Assembly (NCBI RefSeq): GCF_000337495.1
Contig: NZ_AOIS01000047.1
Location: 66,951 to 108,258, forward strand
DNA length: 41,308 nt
Direction of reading: 5' to 3'
Source of the DNA: Haloterrigena salina JCM 13891
GTDB lineage: Archaea > Halobacteriota > Halobacteria > Halobacteriales > Natrialbaceae
Every line of letters starts with the position of its first letter. Positions within the stretch are counted from its first letter, which is position 1. The translations under genes and the position numbers were made by a program. Of the stretch, positions 24,831-31,278 are shown piece after piece. The notes beneath the pieces were generated by a model. That model was not told the DNA's origin, searched no databases, and saw only the letters and a program-made list of their open reading frames with translations.

Positions 24831-25514
24831 TCAGCCGTCCACGGTCGGAAGTCCCTCGAGGAACGACGTAGAGAGCGCGTCACTGACACCGGCGGCCAGC
24901 GTCGCCGGCGACTCGCCGTCGAGCGGCGGCACCGTCTCGACACCGTGGCCGGTAATGCGCTCGAGTTCGGCGGGATTCGTCCGCTCGGCGACCGTCGCAC
25001 CGGCGTACTCGTTGCAGACGATCCCCGCGATGTCGACGCCGCGGCGCTCTAAGGCCTCGATCGAGAGCGCAGTGTGGTTCAGCGTGCCCAGCCCCGACCG
25101 GGTGACGACGACGGCCGTCGCCTCGAGGTCGGCGACGAGATCGATCACCTCGCGGTCGCCGGCCAGCGGGACGCGGAGGCCGCCAATCCCCTCGACGATC
25201 GGCGCGGGCGTCTCGGCGACGGCGTCCTCACAGGCCGTTCGAATTTCGTCGTAGGAGAGTTCCGCATCGGCCACCTCGGCCGCGACTCGCGGCGCCAGCG
25301 CGGGCCCGAGATAGCGGGGACAGGTCGCCGCCTCCGAGTCCCCACAGGCGTCGGCGACGAACGCAGCGTCGTCGTCCGGCGGAGACCCCGTCTGGGCGGG
25401 TTTGATCGCTCGGGCGTCGACGCCCCGCTCGCGAAACCAGCGGGTGATCCCCGCGGTGACGACGGTCTTTCCGATTCCGGTTCCGGTGCCGACGACTGCG
25501 ATGGGGTCGGTCAT
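24831..25514 (-). CDS. bioD: Dethiobiotin synthetase
   Basis: A 227-residue enzyme that closes the ureido ring of dethiobiotin from 7,8-diaminononanoate, CO2 and ATP. The P-loop is GTGTGIGKT (residues 9-17), the substrate lysine is in AIKPAQTG, and the VEGIGGLRVPL loop is characteristic. It is the last gene of the biotin operon, overlapping bioF by the ATGA of its start. Length is typical. Confidence 0.95.
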   Translation of the reverse strand: MTDPIAVVGTGTGIGKTVVTAGITRWFRERGVDARAIKPAQTGSPPDDDAAFVADACGDSEAATCPRYLGPALAPRVAAEVADAELSYDEIRTACEDAVAETPAPIVEGIGGLRVPLAGDREVIDLVADLEATAVVVTRSGLGTLNHTALSIEALERRGVDIAGIVCNEYAGATVAERTNPAELERITGHGVETVPPLDGESPATLAAGVSDALSTSFLEGLPTVDG

Positions 25515-26743
25515 AGGAGTCCGAGTTCGTCCCCGGTCGCCCGAAACGCCTCGAGGCAGGCGACGATGTCGTCGCGATCGTGGGTCGCCATCGGAGCGAC
25601 ACGGATGCGGCTGGTCCCCTCGGGGACGGTGGGGGGCCTGATCGCGGGCGCGACGACGTCTCGTTCTCGCACGCCCTCCGCGAGCGCGAGCGCGTCGGTT
25701 CGGTCGCCGACGATGACGGGGAGGATCTGCGAGTCGCCCAGCACCTCCAGACCCATCGACTCGAGGCCGTCTCGGAGGTGCGCGACGTTCTCCCAGAGGC
25801 GCTCGCGGACGTCGCTATGGCGAGCGATGTGTAGCGCCTCGCTGGCGGCGGCGGCGGCCGGCGGCGCGAGGCCGGTCGAGAAGACAAACGAGCGGGCGTC
25901 GTTGACGAGACACTCGATCAGATCCTCGCTGCCCGCGACGTAGCCGCCCTGACTCGCCAGCGCCTTCGAGAGCGTCCCCAGCTGGATGTGGACGCGATCC
26001 GCGAGGCCCTCCGCCTGGACGACCCCGCCGCCGTTGGCGTAGAGTCCGGTCGCGTGGGCCTCGTCGACCATCACCCACGCGCCGTGGGCCTCGGCGGCGT
26101 CGCAGATCGCTTCGAGGGGCGCGACGGTGCCGTCCATGCTGAACACGGAGTCGGTGACGAGCAGCCAGGACTCCTCGCTCGCGTCGTCGCGGTCGGCCCG
26201 CTCCTCGAGTTTCGATCGCAGGTCCGCGGCGTCGCAGTGGTCGTAGACGACCGTCTCGGCGTCCGCGAGCCGACAGCCGTCGATGATGCTCGCGTGGTTG
26301 TACTCGTCGGAGAAGATCACGTCCGGCTCGAGGGCCGTGATCGTCCCGACGTTGGCGGCGTACCCCGAGGAGAAGGCGAGCGCGCGCTCGGCGCCTTTCG
26401 TCTCGGCGAGCTGGCGCTCGAGGTCCCGGTGGACCATCGTATCGCCGGTCACCAGTCGACTCGCGCCGGCGCCCGTACCGACGGTCGCGGCGGCCTGTCG
26501 GGCGGCGTTCTCGACGCGCTGATCGTCGGTCAGCCCCAGGTAGTTGTTCGAGGCGAAGACCAGCGCCTCGGTCGAGTCGAGAACCGGGAGCTCGCTCCCC
26601 GACGGCGGAGCGAAATAGCCCCGCTCGGCGACCCGGTCGACGGGCGACAGCGTGCGTTTCAGATCGGCGTCCTCGAGGTCGTCGAGTCGGCTCTCGAGGT
26701 CGAACCCGCGATCTTCCATTCGGCTAAAGGGTGACAGTGCCAT
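25511..26743 (-). CDS. bioF: 8-amino-7-oxononanoate synthase
   Basis: A 410-residue PLP enzyme joining L-alanine with pimeloyl thioester. Typical parts are FASNNYLGL, GTGAGASRLVTGD, the cofactor Asp in VMVDEAHATG, and the PLP lysine in TLSKALASQGGY. The start at ATG 26743 (MALSPF) is used; ATG 26719 (MEDRGFDLE) gives a protein more like other haloarchaeal BioF and is a real alternative. It lies 83 bp after the bioU stop and overlaps bioD. No gene for making pimeloyl thioester (bioC, bioH, bioW or bioI) is in the window. Confidence 0.95.
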   Translation of the reverse strand: MALSPFSRMEDRGFDLESRLDDLEDADLKRTLSPVDRVAERGYFAPPSGSELPVLDSTEALVFASNNYLGLTDDQRVENAARQAAATVGTGAGASRLVTGDTMVHRDLERQLAETKGAERALAFSSGYAANVGTITALEPDVIFSDEYNHASIIDGCRLADAETVVYDHCDAADLRSKLEERADRDDASEESWLLVTDSVFSMDGTVAPLEAICDAAEAHGAWVMVDEAHATGLYANGGGVVQAEGLADRVHIQLGTLSKALASQGGYVAGSEDLIECLVNDARSFVFSTGLAPPAAAAASEALHIARHSDVRERLWENVAHLRDGLESMGLEVLGDSQILPVIVGDRTDALALAEGVRERDVVAPAIRPPTVPEGTSRIRVAPMATHDRDDIVACLEAFRATGDELGLL

Positions 26744-26826: not shown

Positions 26827-27888
26827 TCAGAACCCGGGCATCAGTTCGGCAGGGCCGAAGACGCCGTACTCGCCCGCACGGTTTCGGCGAACGCCGGCCT
26901 TCAGGTAGCCCAGCGCCGGCCCGTTGACGTTGGCCTCCATGCTGGTCTCGTCGCCGAGCTGGAACGTGTTCGTCGCCGTCTCGCCGTCGAACGTCTGGCC
27001 AGTTACTCGGACGGTCGTGGTCGTCGGCTTCTCGTCGCTGCGCACGTCGAGAATTCCGCCCACAGTGACGTCCTCGGCGTCGCAGACGCCCGCGCGCTCG
27101 AGCAGGACGTCGTCGGCGTGTTCCATGTCCTCGAACTCGATGACGCCGTCGTGCTCGTCGATGATCGACTCGATCTCCGCGTCGGAGAGGTCGCGGGCGG
27201 TCTCGATGTCGTACTCGGGGAGGTGGGCGACGTCCTCGCGGACGGTGCCGCGGTTGTCCTCGTAGCCCGACTTGAGGCCGACGCCCCACCAGATGTCGAC
27301 GTCCGTGACCTCGACGAACGACTGGGCCGCGAGCGCGGCGGCGCCCGTCAACAGGCCGGGCGTCGCGCCGGCGCCGCAGATGAAGGTGATGCCGGCGTCC
27401 TCGAACTCGTCGCCGCGCTCGTCGAGCATGTCGATCACGCGCGAACGCTTGAGGACGTCGATCAGCACGCCCGCGTAGCCGCCCTCGAGGAAGCGGTCGG
27501 CGACCCGCGGGATGAAGTCGTGCTCGTAGTTCGGCAGCGCGAGCAGGACGGCGTCGATCCCGTCGCCGTGGTCGATGACGTCCTGGATGGGATCGTCGCT
27601 GGCCCGAGCCTGTTCGGAAGCGACGACGCCCCTGTCCTCGCCGTGTTGTTTGACGCCGCCCTCGCTGTCGACGGCGGCAGCGCTCCCGCCGTCGGAAGCG
27701 ACTTCATTATCAATATTGCCCTCCGTTGCCGCCAGCAGTTCGTCGACGTCCAGCCCGTCGAAGTCGATCGCGGTGCCGTGGCGATCGCAGGCCGCGACCG
27801 GCGTCAGACTGTCCTTGTGCTGGCTGACCTCGAGCGCTCGTCGGCCGATACCTCCCGTGCCAAGTACTGCAAACGTGACTTCGTCCAT
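26827..27888 (-). CDS. bioU: BioU-like diaminopelargonate-forming oxidoreductase (saccharopine-dehydrogenase-like)
   Basis: A 353-residue NAD(P)-binding protein with the Rossmann motif VLGTGGIG (residues 8-15). It resembles saccharopine dehydrogenase-like proteins and sits exactly between bioB and bioF, while no BioA aminotransferase is present. BioU replaces BioA in cyanobacteria by donating a lysine nitrogen from its own chain, and haloarchaeal relatives have been reported, so bioU is the best call (context plus family knowledge). Residues 57-99 are an acidic Ser/Ala/Gly-rich insertion. The ATG at 27888 (MDEVTFAVLG) is used; a TTG 18 bp upstream is unlikely. Which residue donates nitrogen needs an alignment. 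Confidence 0.75.
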   Translation of the reverse strand: MDEVTFAVLGTGGIGRRALEVSQHKDSLTPVAACDRHGTAIDFDGLDVDELLAATEGNIDNEVASDGGSAAAVDSEGGVKQHGEDRGVVASEQARASDDPIQDVIDHGDGIDAVLLALPNYEHDFIPRVADRFLEGGYAGVLIDVLKRSRVIDMLDERGDEFEDAGITFICGAGATPGLLTGAAALAAQSFVEVTDVDIWWGVGLKSGYEDNRGTVREDVAHLPEYDIETARDLSDAEIESIIDEHDGVIEFEDMEHADDVLLERAGVCDAEDVTVGGILDVRSDEKPTTTTVRVTGQTFDGETATNTFQLGDETSMEANVNGPALGYLKAGVRRNRAGEYGVFGPAELMPGF

Positions 27889-27909
27889 AGTTGTCTGAAT
27901 TCGCAATCG

Positions 27910-29022
27910 TCAGTCGTCGCTCGGTTCAGTGCCCGCGTTCGTGCCCGCTGCCGTCTCGGTCGACGACTCCGCCGCGTCACTGTGGCGCGCTTTGACCGCC
28001 TCGGGATCGAACTCGTTGGCCTCCATGTTGGGCTCGAGTCCGGCCCGCTCGACGATTGCGAGGTCGTCGCCGGGCGACTGTCCCTCCGTGGTCAGGTAAT
28101 CGCCCGTCAGCAGGCCGTCGGCGCCGGCCTCGAGGGGCAGGTGTTGCTCCTCGGGCGAGAGGTTCGCCTCGCGCCCGCCGGTCAGGCGCACCCGTGACTC
28201 GGGATGGAGCAGTTTGTAGACCGCGACCGTCTTCACGATCTCCTCTGTCGTGATGTCGGCGCCCTGCTCGTACAGCGGCGTCCCCTCGACCGGGTTCAAC
28301 ACGTTCACCGGTAGCGAGGAGATCCCGATGTCCTGGAGCGCGATCGCGGCCTCGACACGGTCGGTGGGCGTCTCGCCCATCCCGAGGATGACGCCGGCAC
28401 AGAGGTCCATCCCCGCTTCTTTCGCCACCTCGAGGGTCGCCACCCGGTCCTCGAAGCTGTGGGTGTCGACGATCTCGGGGAAGTACCGCGGCGAGGTCTC
28501 GATGTTGTGATTGTAGTGGTTGATCCCCTCCTCGGCGAGGATCGCGGCCTCCTCTTCGGTCAGAATTCCGAGGGAGGCGTCGACCTCGAGATCGCACTCG
28601 TCGCGAACGAGCCGGATGGACTCGATGACTTCGTCCCACTCCTCGGGACGACGCTCCTTCGAGACGCCCTTCTCGGCGACGACGATGCCGAAGCGCTGTG
28701 CGCCGTCGGCCTCGGCTCGCTTGGCCGCCTCGAGGATCTTCTCGGGGCCGAGGAAGCCGTAGGTGTCGATGCCAGTGTCGAAGTGGACCGACTGGGCGCA
28801 GAAGCCGCAGTCCTCGGCGCAGTTGCCGGCCTTCGCGTTGACGATCGAGCAGGCGTCGACCGTGCCGTCGCCGAAGCGGTCGCGCACGACGGCGCCGGCC
28901 TCGGCGAGCGGTTCGACCGGTTGCGCCATCAGCGCCAGCCCGTCGGTGCGATCGAGCCGCTCGCCGGCCAGAACCCGCTCGAGCGCGTCGTCGACCGTCC
29001 GGTTGTTCGTCTCGTAAACCAC
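27910..29022 (-). CDS. bioB: Biotin synthase
   Basis: A 370-residue radical SAM enzyme inserting sulphur into dethiobiotin. The cluster motif is CAEDCGFC (Cys68, Cys72, Cys75); other marks are FGIVVAEKGVS, NHYNHNIETS and VNVLNPVEGTP. The last 30 residues are a Thr/Ala/Glu-rich tail beyond the catalytic barrel. The start is the GTG at 29022: a TATA element (CGTTATATTTTCG, 29041-29053) is centred 26 bp upstream, so the transcript is leaderless. A BirA-type operator overlaps the start. It is the first gene of bioB-bioU-bioF-bioD. Confidence 0.95.
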   Translation of the reverse strand: MVYETNNRTVDDALERVLAGERLDRTDGLALMAQPVEPLAEAGAVVRDRFGDGTVDACSIVNAKAGNCAEDCGFCAQSVHFDTGIDTYGFLGPEKILEAAKRAEADGAQRFGIVVAEKGVSKERRPEEWDEVIESIRLVRDECDLEVDASLGILTEEEAAILAEEGINHYNHNIETSPRYFPEIVDTHSFEDRVATLEVAKEAGMDLCAGVILGMGETPTDRVEAAIALQDIGISSLPVNVLNPVEGTPLYEQGADITTEEIVKTVAVYKLLHPESRVRLTGGREANLSPEEQHLPLEAGADGLLTGDYLTTEGQSPGDDLAIVERAGLEPNMEANEFDPEAVKARHSDAAESSTETAAGTNAGTEPSDD

Positions 29023-29041
29023 ACTCCTAGAGGTGGTTAAC
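29014..29041. promoter_or_regulatory. BirA-type biotin operator at the bioB start
   Basis: GTAAACC (29014-29020), 14 bases, GGTTAAC (29035-29041). The arms and spacing match the known BirA consensus GTAAACC-N14-16-GGTTTAC with one mismatch. The site covers the start codon and initiation point between the TATA element and bioB, so a bound BirA would block transcription when biotin is sufficient. Confidence 0.75.
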
Positions 29042-29219
29042 GAAAATATAACGTTTTTGGATGTTCGCTTCGAGAGAAAACGGACGGAGCGAGCGTCTGA
29101 AAGCGTCGGTTGCGTCCCATAGAGCGCCGTATGAACGGTTTTCGTTTCGAGATTCGGGGGCTCGAGCGCTGACAACGCGCGGTCCGTTCACGTCGGTTCC
29201 CTAACCGTTTAATATCACT

Positions 29220-29231
29220 GTGTGGTCACAC
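29220..29231. promoter_or_regulatory. Operator-like inverted repeat before the hydrolase gene
   Basis: GTGTGGTCACAC has perfect 5-bp arms. It lies between the TATA element TTTAATATC (29208-29216) and the ATG at 29237, a repressor-type position. Confidence 0.45.
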
Positions 29232-29236
29232 GGCTC

Positions 29237-30136
29237 ATGGTAGTACGCATCTCGGAGGAACGGTTCGCCGACGTGCCCGATTTCGACTACGAGCCGAAGT
29301 ACGTCGACGTCGGCGAGTTGCGAATGGCGTACGTCGAAACCGGCGGAAGCGGGGGTGACGGGGGAGACGAGGAGACGTTCCTCTGTCTCCACGGCGAACC
29401 GACGTGGTCGTTTCTCTACCGGGAGATGATGTCGACCCTGGCCGAGCGCGGTCGTGTCGTTGTCCCCGATCTGATCGGCTGCGGGCGCTCCGACAGGTAC
29501 GAGGACCGCGACGCCTACTCCCTCGAGATGCACTACGACGCGCTCGAGACGTTCGTCGAGGAACTCGATCTAACGAACGTCACGCTCGTCTGTCAGGACT
29601 GGGGCGGCGTCCTCGGACTCCCGCTCGCAGTCCATCGGCCCGAGCGGTTCGCGCGTCTCGTCCCGATGAACACCGGCGTTCCGGACGGGACCCAGGAGAT
29701 GAGCGACCGGTGGCACGAGTTCGCCGAGATGGTAGCGACCGCCGACGACCTCGACATCGGCAGACTCGTCCGGAACGGCTGTTACCGGGACCTCTCTGCG
29801 GAGGTTGTCGACGCCTATCGCGCGCCGTTCCCGGACGAGCGATACATGGCTGCCGCGCGAACATTCCCCGGCCTCGTCCCAACATCGCCCGACGACCCCG
29901 GGGCGGAGCTGATGGCCGAAACGCAGGAGCGTCTCGGCGAGTGGGAGAAACCGGCGTTCGTGCTGTTCGGAAGGGAGGATCCGATCACGTCTCACGACCG
30001 CGATCCGCTCCGACACCACATCCCGACCGCGACCGAGCAGCCCGACGTCTGGATCGACGAGGCGGCACACTTCCTACAGGAGGACGCCGGCGAGGAGATC
30101 GCCGAACGCATCGTCGAGTTCGTCGATCGGACCTGA
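29237..30136 (+). CDS. Haloalkane-dehalogenase-like alpha/beta hydrolase
   Basis: A 299-residue alpha/beta hydrolase closest to group I haloalkane dehalogenases. It has the HGEPTWSFLYR oxyanion loop, nucleophile Asp in CQDWGG, the acid in FGREDPIT and the base His in EAAHFLQED; APFPDERYMAAARTFP is typical of the cap. The first halide-binding Trp follows the nucleophile. The second, a cap Trp in DhlA, appears replaced here: RNGCYRDLS stands where DhlA has a Trp. Dehalogenation is therefore plausible but unproven. The ATG at 29237 is 25 bp after the TATA element; the GTG at 29222 lies inside the inverted repeat. Confidence 0.82.
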   Translation: MVVRISEERFADVPDFDYEPKYVDVGELRMAYVETGGSGGDGGDEETFLCLHGEPTWSFLYREMMSTLAERGRVVVPDLIGCGRSDRYEDRDAYSLEMHYDALETFVEELDLTNVTLVCQDWGGVLGLPLAVHRPERFARLVPMNTGVPDGTQEMSDRWHEFAEMVATADDLDIGRLVRNGCYRDLSAEVVDAYRAPFPDERYMAAARTFPGLVPTSPDDPGAELMAETQERLGEWEKPAFVLFGREDPITSHDRDPLRHHIPTATEQPDVWIDEAAHFLQEDAGEEIAERIVEFVDRT

Positions 30137-30178: not shown

Positions 30179-30790
30179 CTATCCGGGCCGCTCCTCCCGG
30201 CGAACGAAGCCGATCGTCGCCGGATCGAAGTAGTACGTCGATCGACAGTCCGCACACGAGGCCGTCAACAGCTTCCCGTGTTTGTACTGTTTCCACAGCT
30301 TCGTCTGGTCCCGTTCGATATCCAGCGTGACCGGGTGGCCGCAGTCGGGAATCGTACAGGGAAACCGGATGTACCAGTTGGGAACCGAGAGCGCCCCGAG
30401 GGGTGCGAGTTCGCTCCGGAGGCGACTGAGCAGATTGAAGATCGTAAACGACGGGTTCTCCCGATCGATCGCCACGCCGTCGACGTCGCTTACGTACCCG
30501 TCCCGCTGGCGTTCGTCCTCGTGGAGCGGGAGCACCGGAATTCCCTTGGCCCGCGCGTAGCCGATCTCCTGGTTGATCCACCGGTTGGTCGCCGCGTCGT
30601 CGGTTATCACCGCGACGACGACGTCGCTGTTCGCGAGTCGTCCCTCGAGTCGCTTCCGCGAGCGGCCGGATTCAACCTCCTCGAGGGCGATGTGGACGCC
30701 GAAGGGGAAGTTCTTGACCGTCGAGAACAGTTCCTGGACGAGATCGAAGTCGCCGGGGGCGTGCGAGACGTAGATCTGTTCTCCGGTCAT
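30179..30790 (-). CDS. TIR-domain protein with C-terminal zinc ribbon
   Basis: A 203-residue protein. Residues 4-95 read as a TIR domain: QIYVSHAPGDFDLVQELF, a DVVVAVITDDAATN strand, then WINQEIGYARAKGIPVLPL, with Glu75 at the position of the NADase catalytic Glu. Residues 139-190 hold four Cys in a ribbon pattern (CTIPDC and CADC), the second pair in a TASCADCRSTYYF context. TIR proteins hydrolyse NAD+ or make signal nucleotides in defence systems; here no effector or Argonaute gene is near. ATG 30790 is used; ATG 30826 adds 12 residues. A 147-residue unknown protein gene lies 44 bp upstream on the same strand. Confidence 0.72.
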   Translation of the reverse strand: MTGEQIYVSHAPGDFDLVQELFSTVKNFPFGVHIALEEVESGRSRKRLEGRLANSDVVVAVITDDAATNRWINQEIGYARAKGIPVLPLHEDERQRDGYVSDVDGVAIDRENPSFTIFNLLSRLRSELAPLGALSVPNWYIRFPCTIPDCGHPVTLDIERDQTKLWKQYKHGKLLTASCADCRSTYYFDPATIGFVRREERPG

Positions 30791-30834
30791 CTGTGAATCT
30801 ACAACGACTGGTGTGTGAGACAACATTAATCTAT

Positions 30835-31278
30835 CTACTCGGTACCAGTCACCTGGCGCCGCGTCTCGAGCACGCGCTGGGAGAACTCGAGGTCGTCCAA
30901 CTCGATGCCGAGCCCGTCGAACCACTCCCGTTCGACGTGCCAGCGGCCGCGGACGTCCCCGTCTGTCGTCAGCGACGTCGCCTCGAGGCGGCCCGGCGAC
31001 CACTCGCGCTCGGCGGCGATATCGAGTACTGTTCGGACGACGGTCCCCACTTCATTGCTGTCGACGGCGGGTGTCTCGGAGACGGTCTCGTACTCGAGGA
31101 CGATTCCGGCCCCGTCCGGAGCCGCAGCTGCAGTCTCGCCGTCAGTGACATCATCCGCGGCCGAGTCCAAGCCGTCGCGCTCGTCGTCCGGCAGTTGCAA
31201 CTCACAGCTCGTGATGTAGATCCCCTGTCCCATCAGGCGGTTCTCGAGCGTCACCGGGATGGGGTAGTCATCGGTCAT
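30835..31278 (-). CDS. Hypothetical protein upstream of the TIR gene
   Basis: A 147-residue acidic protein of no family I recognise. It opens MTDDYPIPVTLENRLMGQGI and has a low-complexity acidic Ala-rich stretch at about residues 38-60. A conserved-looking end, GRWHVEREWFDGLGIELDDL, follows. No catalytic motif is visible. A T-rich CTTTTCCCC about 28 bp before ATG 31278 may be the TATA region. The gene ends 44 bp before the TIR start on the same strand, so co-transcription is possible but not shown. Confidence 0.65.
   Translation of the reverse strand: MTDDYPIPVTLENRLMGQGIYITSCELQLPDDERDGLDSAADDVTDGETAAAAPDGAGIVLEYETVSETPAVDSNEVGTVVRTVLDIAAEREWSPGRLEATSLTTDGDVRGRWHVEREWFDGLGIELDDLEFSQRVLETRRQVTGTE

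Follow-up and report, generated by a model that had tools for sequence, protein, structure and literature searches.

The second gene of the biotin operon of the haloarchaeon Haloterrigena salina JCM 13891 very probably encodes an archaeal BioU, which would carry out the step otherwise assigned to BioA by suicide chemistry of the Slr0355 type. The gene lies in what is here called the window, i.e. the whole 41,308-nt stretch of contig NZ_AOIS01000047.1 that was analysed. An earlier note on this DNA had proposed that a BioU-like enzyme stands in for BioA, and this overall reading is supported, all computable checks having come out in its favour.

The biotin operon and its BioU orthologue

The four bio genes (Table 1) are closely packed, all on the minus strand, and the start of bioD overlaps the stop of bioF as ATGA. 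The earlier note, whose interval of 26,827 to 29,022 spans bioU and bioB, had given the order as bioB-oxidoreductase-bioF-bioD. That order is right: BioB and BioD score above the respective NCBIfam equivalog cut-offs, BioF is slightly short of its own, and the order bioB-bioU-bioF-bioD is found again in nearly all haloarchaeal BioU loci read. Because the same order recurs and BioU and BioD co-occur across genomes (see below), the arrangement is not a matter of chance.

Table 1. Features of the biotin operon region, in window coordinates
Feature	Position	Strand	Evidence
bioB, biotin synthase	27910..29022	-	GTG start at 29022; TIGR00433 337.5 bits (cut-off 225); Pfam Radical_SAM and BATS
bioU, BioU orthologue, 353 aa	26827..27888	-	ATG start; phmmer, Foldseek, NF047886 (E 8e-104)
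bioF, 8-amino-7-oxononanoate synthase	25511..26743	-	best model TIGR00858, 403.7 bits, just below the cut-off of 426
bioD, dethiobiotin synthase	24831..25514	-	TIGR00347 100.7 bits (cut-off 83.3)
Lys147 codon, predicted sacrificial lysine (Slr0355 Lys124)	27448..27450	-	alignment to wild-type and K124A chains
His257 codon (Slr0355 His233)	27118..27120	-	alignment; Ala in 6k38
Acidic insertion of haloarchaeal BioU, predicted disordered, residues about 58-88	27625..27717	-	pLDDT <50
Predicted BirA-type operator, CGTTAAC-N16-GTTTACG	29013..29042	-	right half over first bioB codons; conserved upstream of bioB

The protein that had been described as BioU-like proved to be a BioU orthologue by both sequence and fold. 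In phmmer searches, it matches Slr0355, the BioU of Synechocystis PCC 6803, with an E value of about 1e-86, and the Slr0355/BioU entries 6ir4, 6k36, 6itd/6k37, and 6k38 are the only solved structures to which it is related in sequence. Residues 6-54 and 87-353 align to Slr0355; identity to cyanobacterial BioU is 44-46%, and another cyanobacterial BioU is 44% identical over 346 columns. When the AlphaFold model of the protein (pLDDT 75) was compared with solved structures in Foldseek, the five BioU structures took the top five places at E values of 1e-35 to 1e-37 (for 6ir4, E 8.5e-37, TM 0.71/0.76, and 41% identity), and the next fold, that of amino-acid dehydrogenases, followed at ~1e-10 and 16% identity. 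Meso-diaminopimelate and D-amino acid dehydrogenases and dihydrodipicolinate reductases (5gz3, 3wgo, 6bdx) share the general NAD(P) Rossmann fold, but with E values of about 1e-8 to 1e-10, TM scores of about 0.4-0.5, and 11-16% identity they match the model of the window protein far less well than BioU does, and they are without the sacrificial lysine motif. Homology to Slr0355 thus extends over the whole protein, and the NAD(P)-binding Rossmann fold is of the BioU type; a GTGGIG motif is present and is invariant in haloarchaeal BioU loci. The Pfam search of the protein returned zero matches, DNA-binding domains included. Of the earlier description as a 'saccharopine-dehydrogenase-like' Rossmann protein, the general fold therefore stands, and the likeness to saccharopine dehydrogenase, with Pfam matches nil, does not.

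Slr0355 and the haloarchaeal protein have in common a Rossmann-type fold, a glycine-rich N-terminal motif, the reactive lysine, and an equivalent of His233, and both replace BioA alongside BioF, BioD, and BioB. They differ in the acidic insertion of the haloarchaeal side, which varies in length among homologues and is almost missing from locus L123 and from Slr0355. The genomic setting differs as well: none of 80 cyanobacterial loci has bioB, bioF, or bioD within up to ~5 kb on either side, whereas haloarchaeal bioU sits in a four-gene operon. No BioU was found in phages (INPHARED) or viral contigs (IMG/VR).

The PDB titles give K124A as the mutation in 6itd and 6k37, and H233A as that in 6k38. 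The K-to-A change of the former aligns with Lys147 of the window protein—the residue in VLKRSR that the earlier note had named as a candidate, and the exact counterpart of Slr0355 Lys124—and the H-to-A change of the latter aligns with His257. Lysine occupies the 147 position in 87 of the 87 intact haloarchaeal BioU loci, always as KRSRV and within an invariant D-x-L-K-R; His257 is likewise invariant. These 87 loci come from 86 genomes, and three more loci hold remnants only. Both residues are carried by all 80 cyanobacterial loci fetched, the histidine count being partly built in, as one search pattern contained that His. Whether the enzyme is suicidal or uses free lysine was, in the earlier note, to be read from the reactive residue. 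Because this is lysine, both in the window protein and in every intact haloarchaeal copy, the suicide mechanism is predicted rather than the free-lysine variant, and haloarchaeal BioU would by this residue be of the lysine-bearing, suicide type.

Absence of bioA and distribution of BioU among haloarchaea

With the BioA model TIGR00508, none of 242 haloarchaeal genomes, each at least 90% complete, gave a hit that reached the cut-off, nor did the window's genome; of 14 control genomes, 6 did. The search for bioA thus came out as the proposed replacement would have it, and the absence of bioA is supported. BioA acts at the same step, from 8-amino-7-oxononanoate (AON) to diaminononanoate, but is a PLP enzyme unrelated to BioU, and no aminotransferase match was obtained in the BioU protein itself. 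The window's genome encodes seven class-III aminotransferases (ArgD/LysJ-like, diaminobutyrate transaminase, acetylornithine-type, and two HemL), which score far better on these models than on BioA. Given the result for the 242 genomes and the resemblance of the seven to other enzymes, a hidden BioA is rejected.

Of the 242 genomes, 87 have intact BioU, 87 have a BioD that passes its cut-off, and 86 have both; one has BioU only, one BioD only, and 154 lack the two. Fisher's test, taking no account of relatedness, gives p about 6e-64. Both exceptions are due to contig breaks: in G186, bioD is split over two contigs, and in G227, bioD lies beside a truncated bioF at contig ends. BioB is more widespread, being over cut-off in 104 genomes; where it occurs without intact BioU, BioD is nowhere over cut-off, and mostly there is no BioF beside BioB. 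This co-occurrence and joint loss indicate that BioU accompanies the pathway in which it is needed and disappears along with it. In the operon and across the class alike, BioU therefore occurs with bioF, bioD, and bioB where bioA is missing.

Remnants of BioU persist in G101, G182, and G215. Four loci keep bioF without intact bioU (L048 in G033, L067 in G160, L060 in G182, and L063 in G215), none of them with bioD over cut-off; three of these four genomes carry bioU or bioB fragments, and pathway decay is under way in all four loci. Another enzyme would be suggested by a haloarchaeon that has bioF and bioD yet lacks BioU; none was found, G227 and G186 being contig breaks and G033, G160, G182, and G215 being without bioD. 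One genome (G230) has two BioU/BioB copies, L037 and L118; in L037, neither bioF nor bioD was detected downstream of bioU.

In haloarchaeal biotin synthesis, the gap that is left narrows to the pimeloyl precursor. Of the known pimeloyl routes, BioW is absent from the window's genome, and BioC and BioH gave nothing near cut-off. No conserved pimeloyl gene was found next to the operon either: the genes that recur in every case are the four bio genes alone, and in loci taken with 4 kb flanks, no fifth gene is common to all. Divergent from bioB, at 29222-30136 on the plus strand, lies a gene for a haloalkane-dehalogenase-like alpha/beta hydrolase. It is retained next to the operon in just some genomes of the family to which the window's genome belongs, and the hydrolase may have a BioH-like role. 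Also near the biotin operon, at 30182-31003 on the minus strand, is a gene for a TIR-domain protein (Pfam TIR_2, ThsB_TIR), which may be a defence gene. In another haloarchaeal family (L069 and about 20 other loci), a DRTGG/BioD-like P-loop protein of the phosphotransacetylase type is encoded about 1 kb downstream of bioD, adjoining an ATP-grasp acyl-CoA synthetase subunit and convergent with the biotin operon.

Proposed chemistry and alternative readings

In Synechocystis BioU, AON condenses with the lysine, and NAD(P)H reduction, carboxylation, and NAD(P)+-driven release follow, with loss of the lysine amine (PMC12915131, PMC7133116). Since Slr0355 has been characterised, we infer by analogy that haloarchaeal BioU shares this chemistry, the single turnover, and the use of the lysine's nitrogen. 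AON made by BioF would condense through its keto group with the epsilon-amino group of Lys147, and the resulting imine would be reduced by NAD(P)H to a BioU-diaminononanoate conjugate. After carboxylation of the conjugate by CO2, oxidation of the lysine side by NAD(P)+ would release diaminononanoate-carbamate, which takes the lysine's nitrogen with it, and BioU would be left spent, with allysine in place of the lysine. BioD would then close the ring to give dethiobiotin, into which BioB would insert sulphur.

A one-shot enzyme is costly, and the same step could in principle be run over many turnovers, if free lysine or a different amine were the donor or if the allysine at position 147 were re-aminated. 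Turnover is not readable from sequence, and the haloarchaeal copies, with their acidic insertion, stand 54-56% away from the characterised protein. If the lysine came from solution, however, variation at the reactive position would be expected, and the sacrificial lysine is invariant, together with its D-x-L-K-R surroundings, in 87 haloarchaeal loci; we regard multiple turnover as improbable. Still less credit is due to the reading that the gene is no biotin enzyme at all, being instead a transcriptional regulator or generic dehydrogenase, while a class-III aminotransferase makes diaminononanoate. Orthologues are indeed labelled 'transcriptional regulator' in public records, and there are seven candidate aminotransferases in the genome, but these fit their own models far better than that of BioA, the protein has neither a DNA-binding domain nor any Pfam match, its best fold matches are the five BioU structures, and BioU is lost together with BioD. 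A BioU acting by sacrifice of its own lysine remains the preferred reading.

Regulation, public annotation, and meaning

In a set of 103 non-redundant regions upstream of bioB, an inverted repeat, CGTNAAC-N16-GTTTACG, is conserved together with a promoter-like block (CC at -38/-37 and TTAT at -29 to -26); a TATA-like element lies about 29 nt upstream of the bioB start codon. The left half of the palindrome is non-coding and 90-100% conserved except for its variable fourth base, and the right half is also coding, with T always at the synonymous Val position. Scores of 12 or more were rare in random stretches of the same loci (3 of 400, vs 69 of 105 for the palindrome). The palindrome over the bioB start presumably resembles BirA operators, and a BirA with an HTH_11 domain is encoded in the window's genome. 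The element is hence a predicted BirA operator on a leaderless or near-leaderless transcript, behind a TATA/BRE-like block. More tentatively, biotin-loaded BirA may repress the operon, and such repression would keep down the expense of an enzyme that works once.

In public records, the gene appears as 'transcriptional regulator' (Haloferax larsenii NZ_CP078064, Natrinema thermotolerans CP031304, and several Haladaptatus) or as 'hypothetical protein' (Natronococcus occultus), and the neighbouring bioB, bioF, and bioD are named correctly in the two records read. All seven named records are plasmids, the collection searched being one that holds plasmids. On the NCBI BioU model NF047886, the window protein scores 347 bits and other haloarchaeal orthologues 329-339 bits, below the 600-bit naming threshold that three cyanobacterial BioU proteins pass at 630-647 bits. 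Failure to reach this cut-off likely accounts for the labels. The threshold looks to have been set on cyanobacteria and, on present evidence, parts two clades rather than functions. In Haloferax mediterranei, bioD, bioF, and bioB are HFX_5076, 5077, and 5079, which respond together to Lsm deletion (PMC10779274); synteny with the Haloferax larsenii record suggests that HFX_5078 is BioU. No paper joining BioU, biotin, and haloarchaea was found in the open literature searched; the original BioU paper (Sakaki et al. 2020) may already mention archaeal homologues.

The archaeal branch of BioU is thus a class-wide, misannotated, and domain-crossing member of a known family. With its recognition, a 'suicide' vitamin enzyme of single turnover described from cyanobacteria is predicted in a second domain of life; the diaminononanoate step is filled for a whole archaeal class, in about one in three of the haloarchaeal genomes sampled; and a 'transcriptional regulator' label in wide use is corrected. 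It also makes Haloferax a tractable second system in which the single turnover of BioU can be studied.
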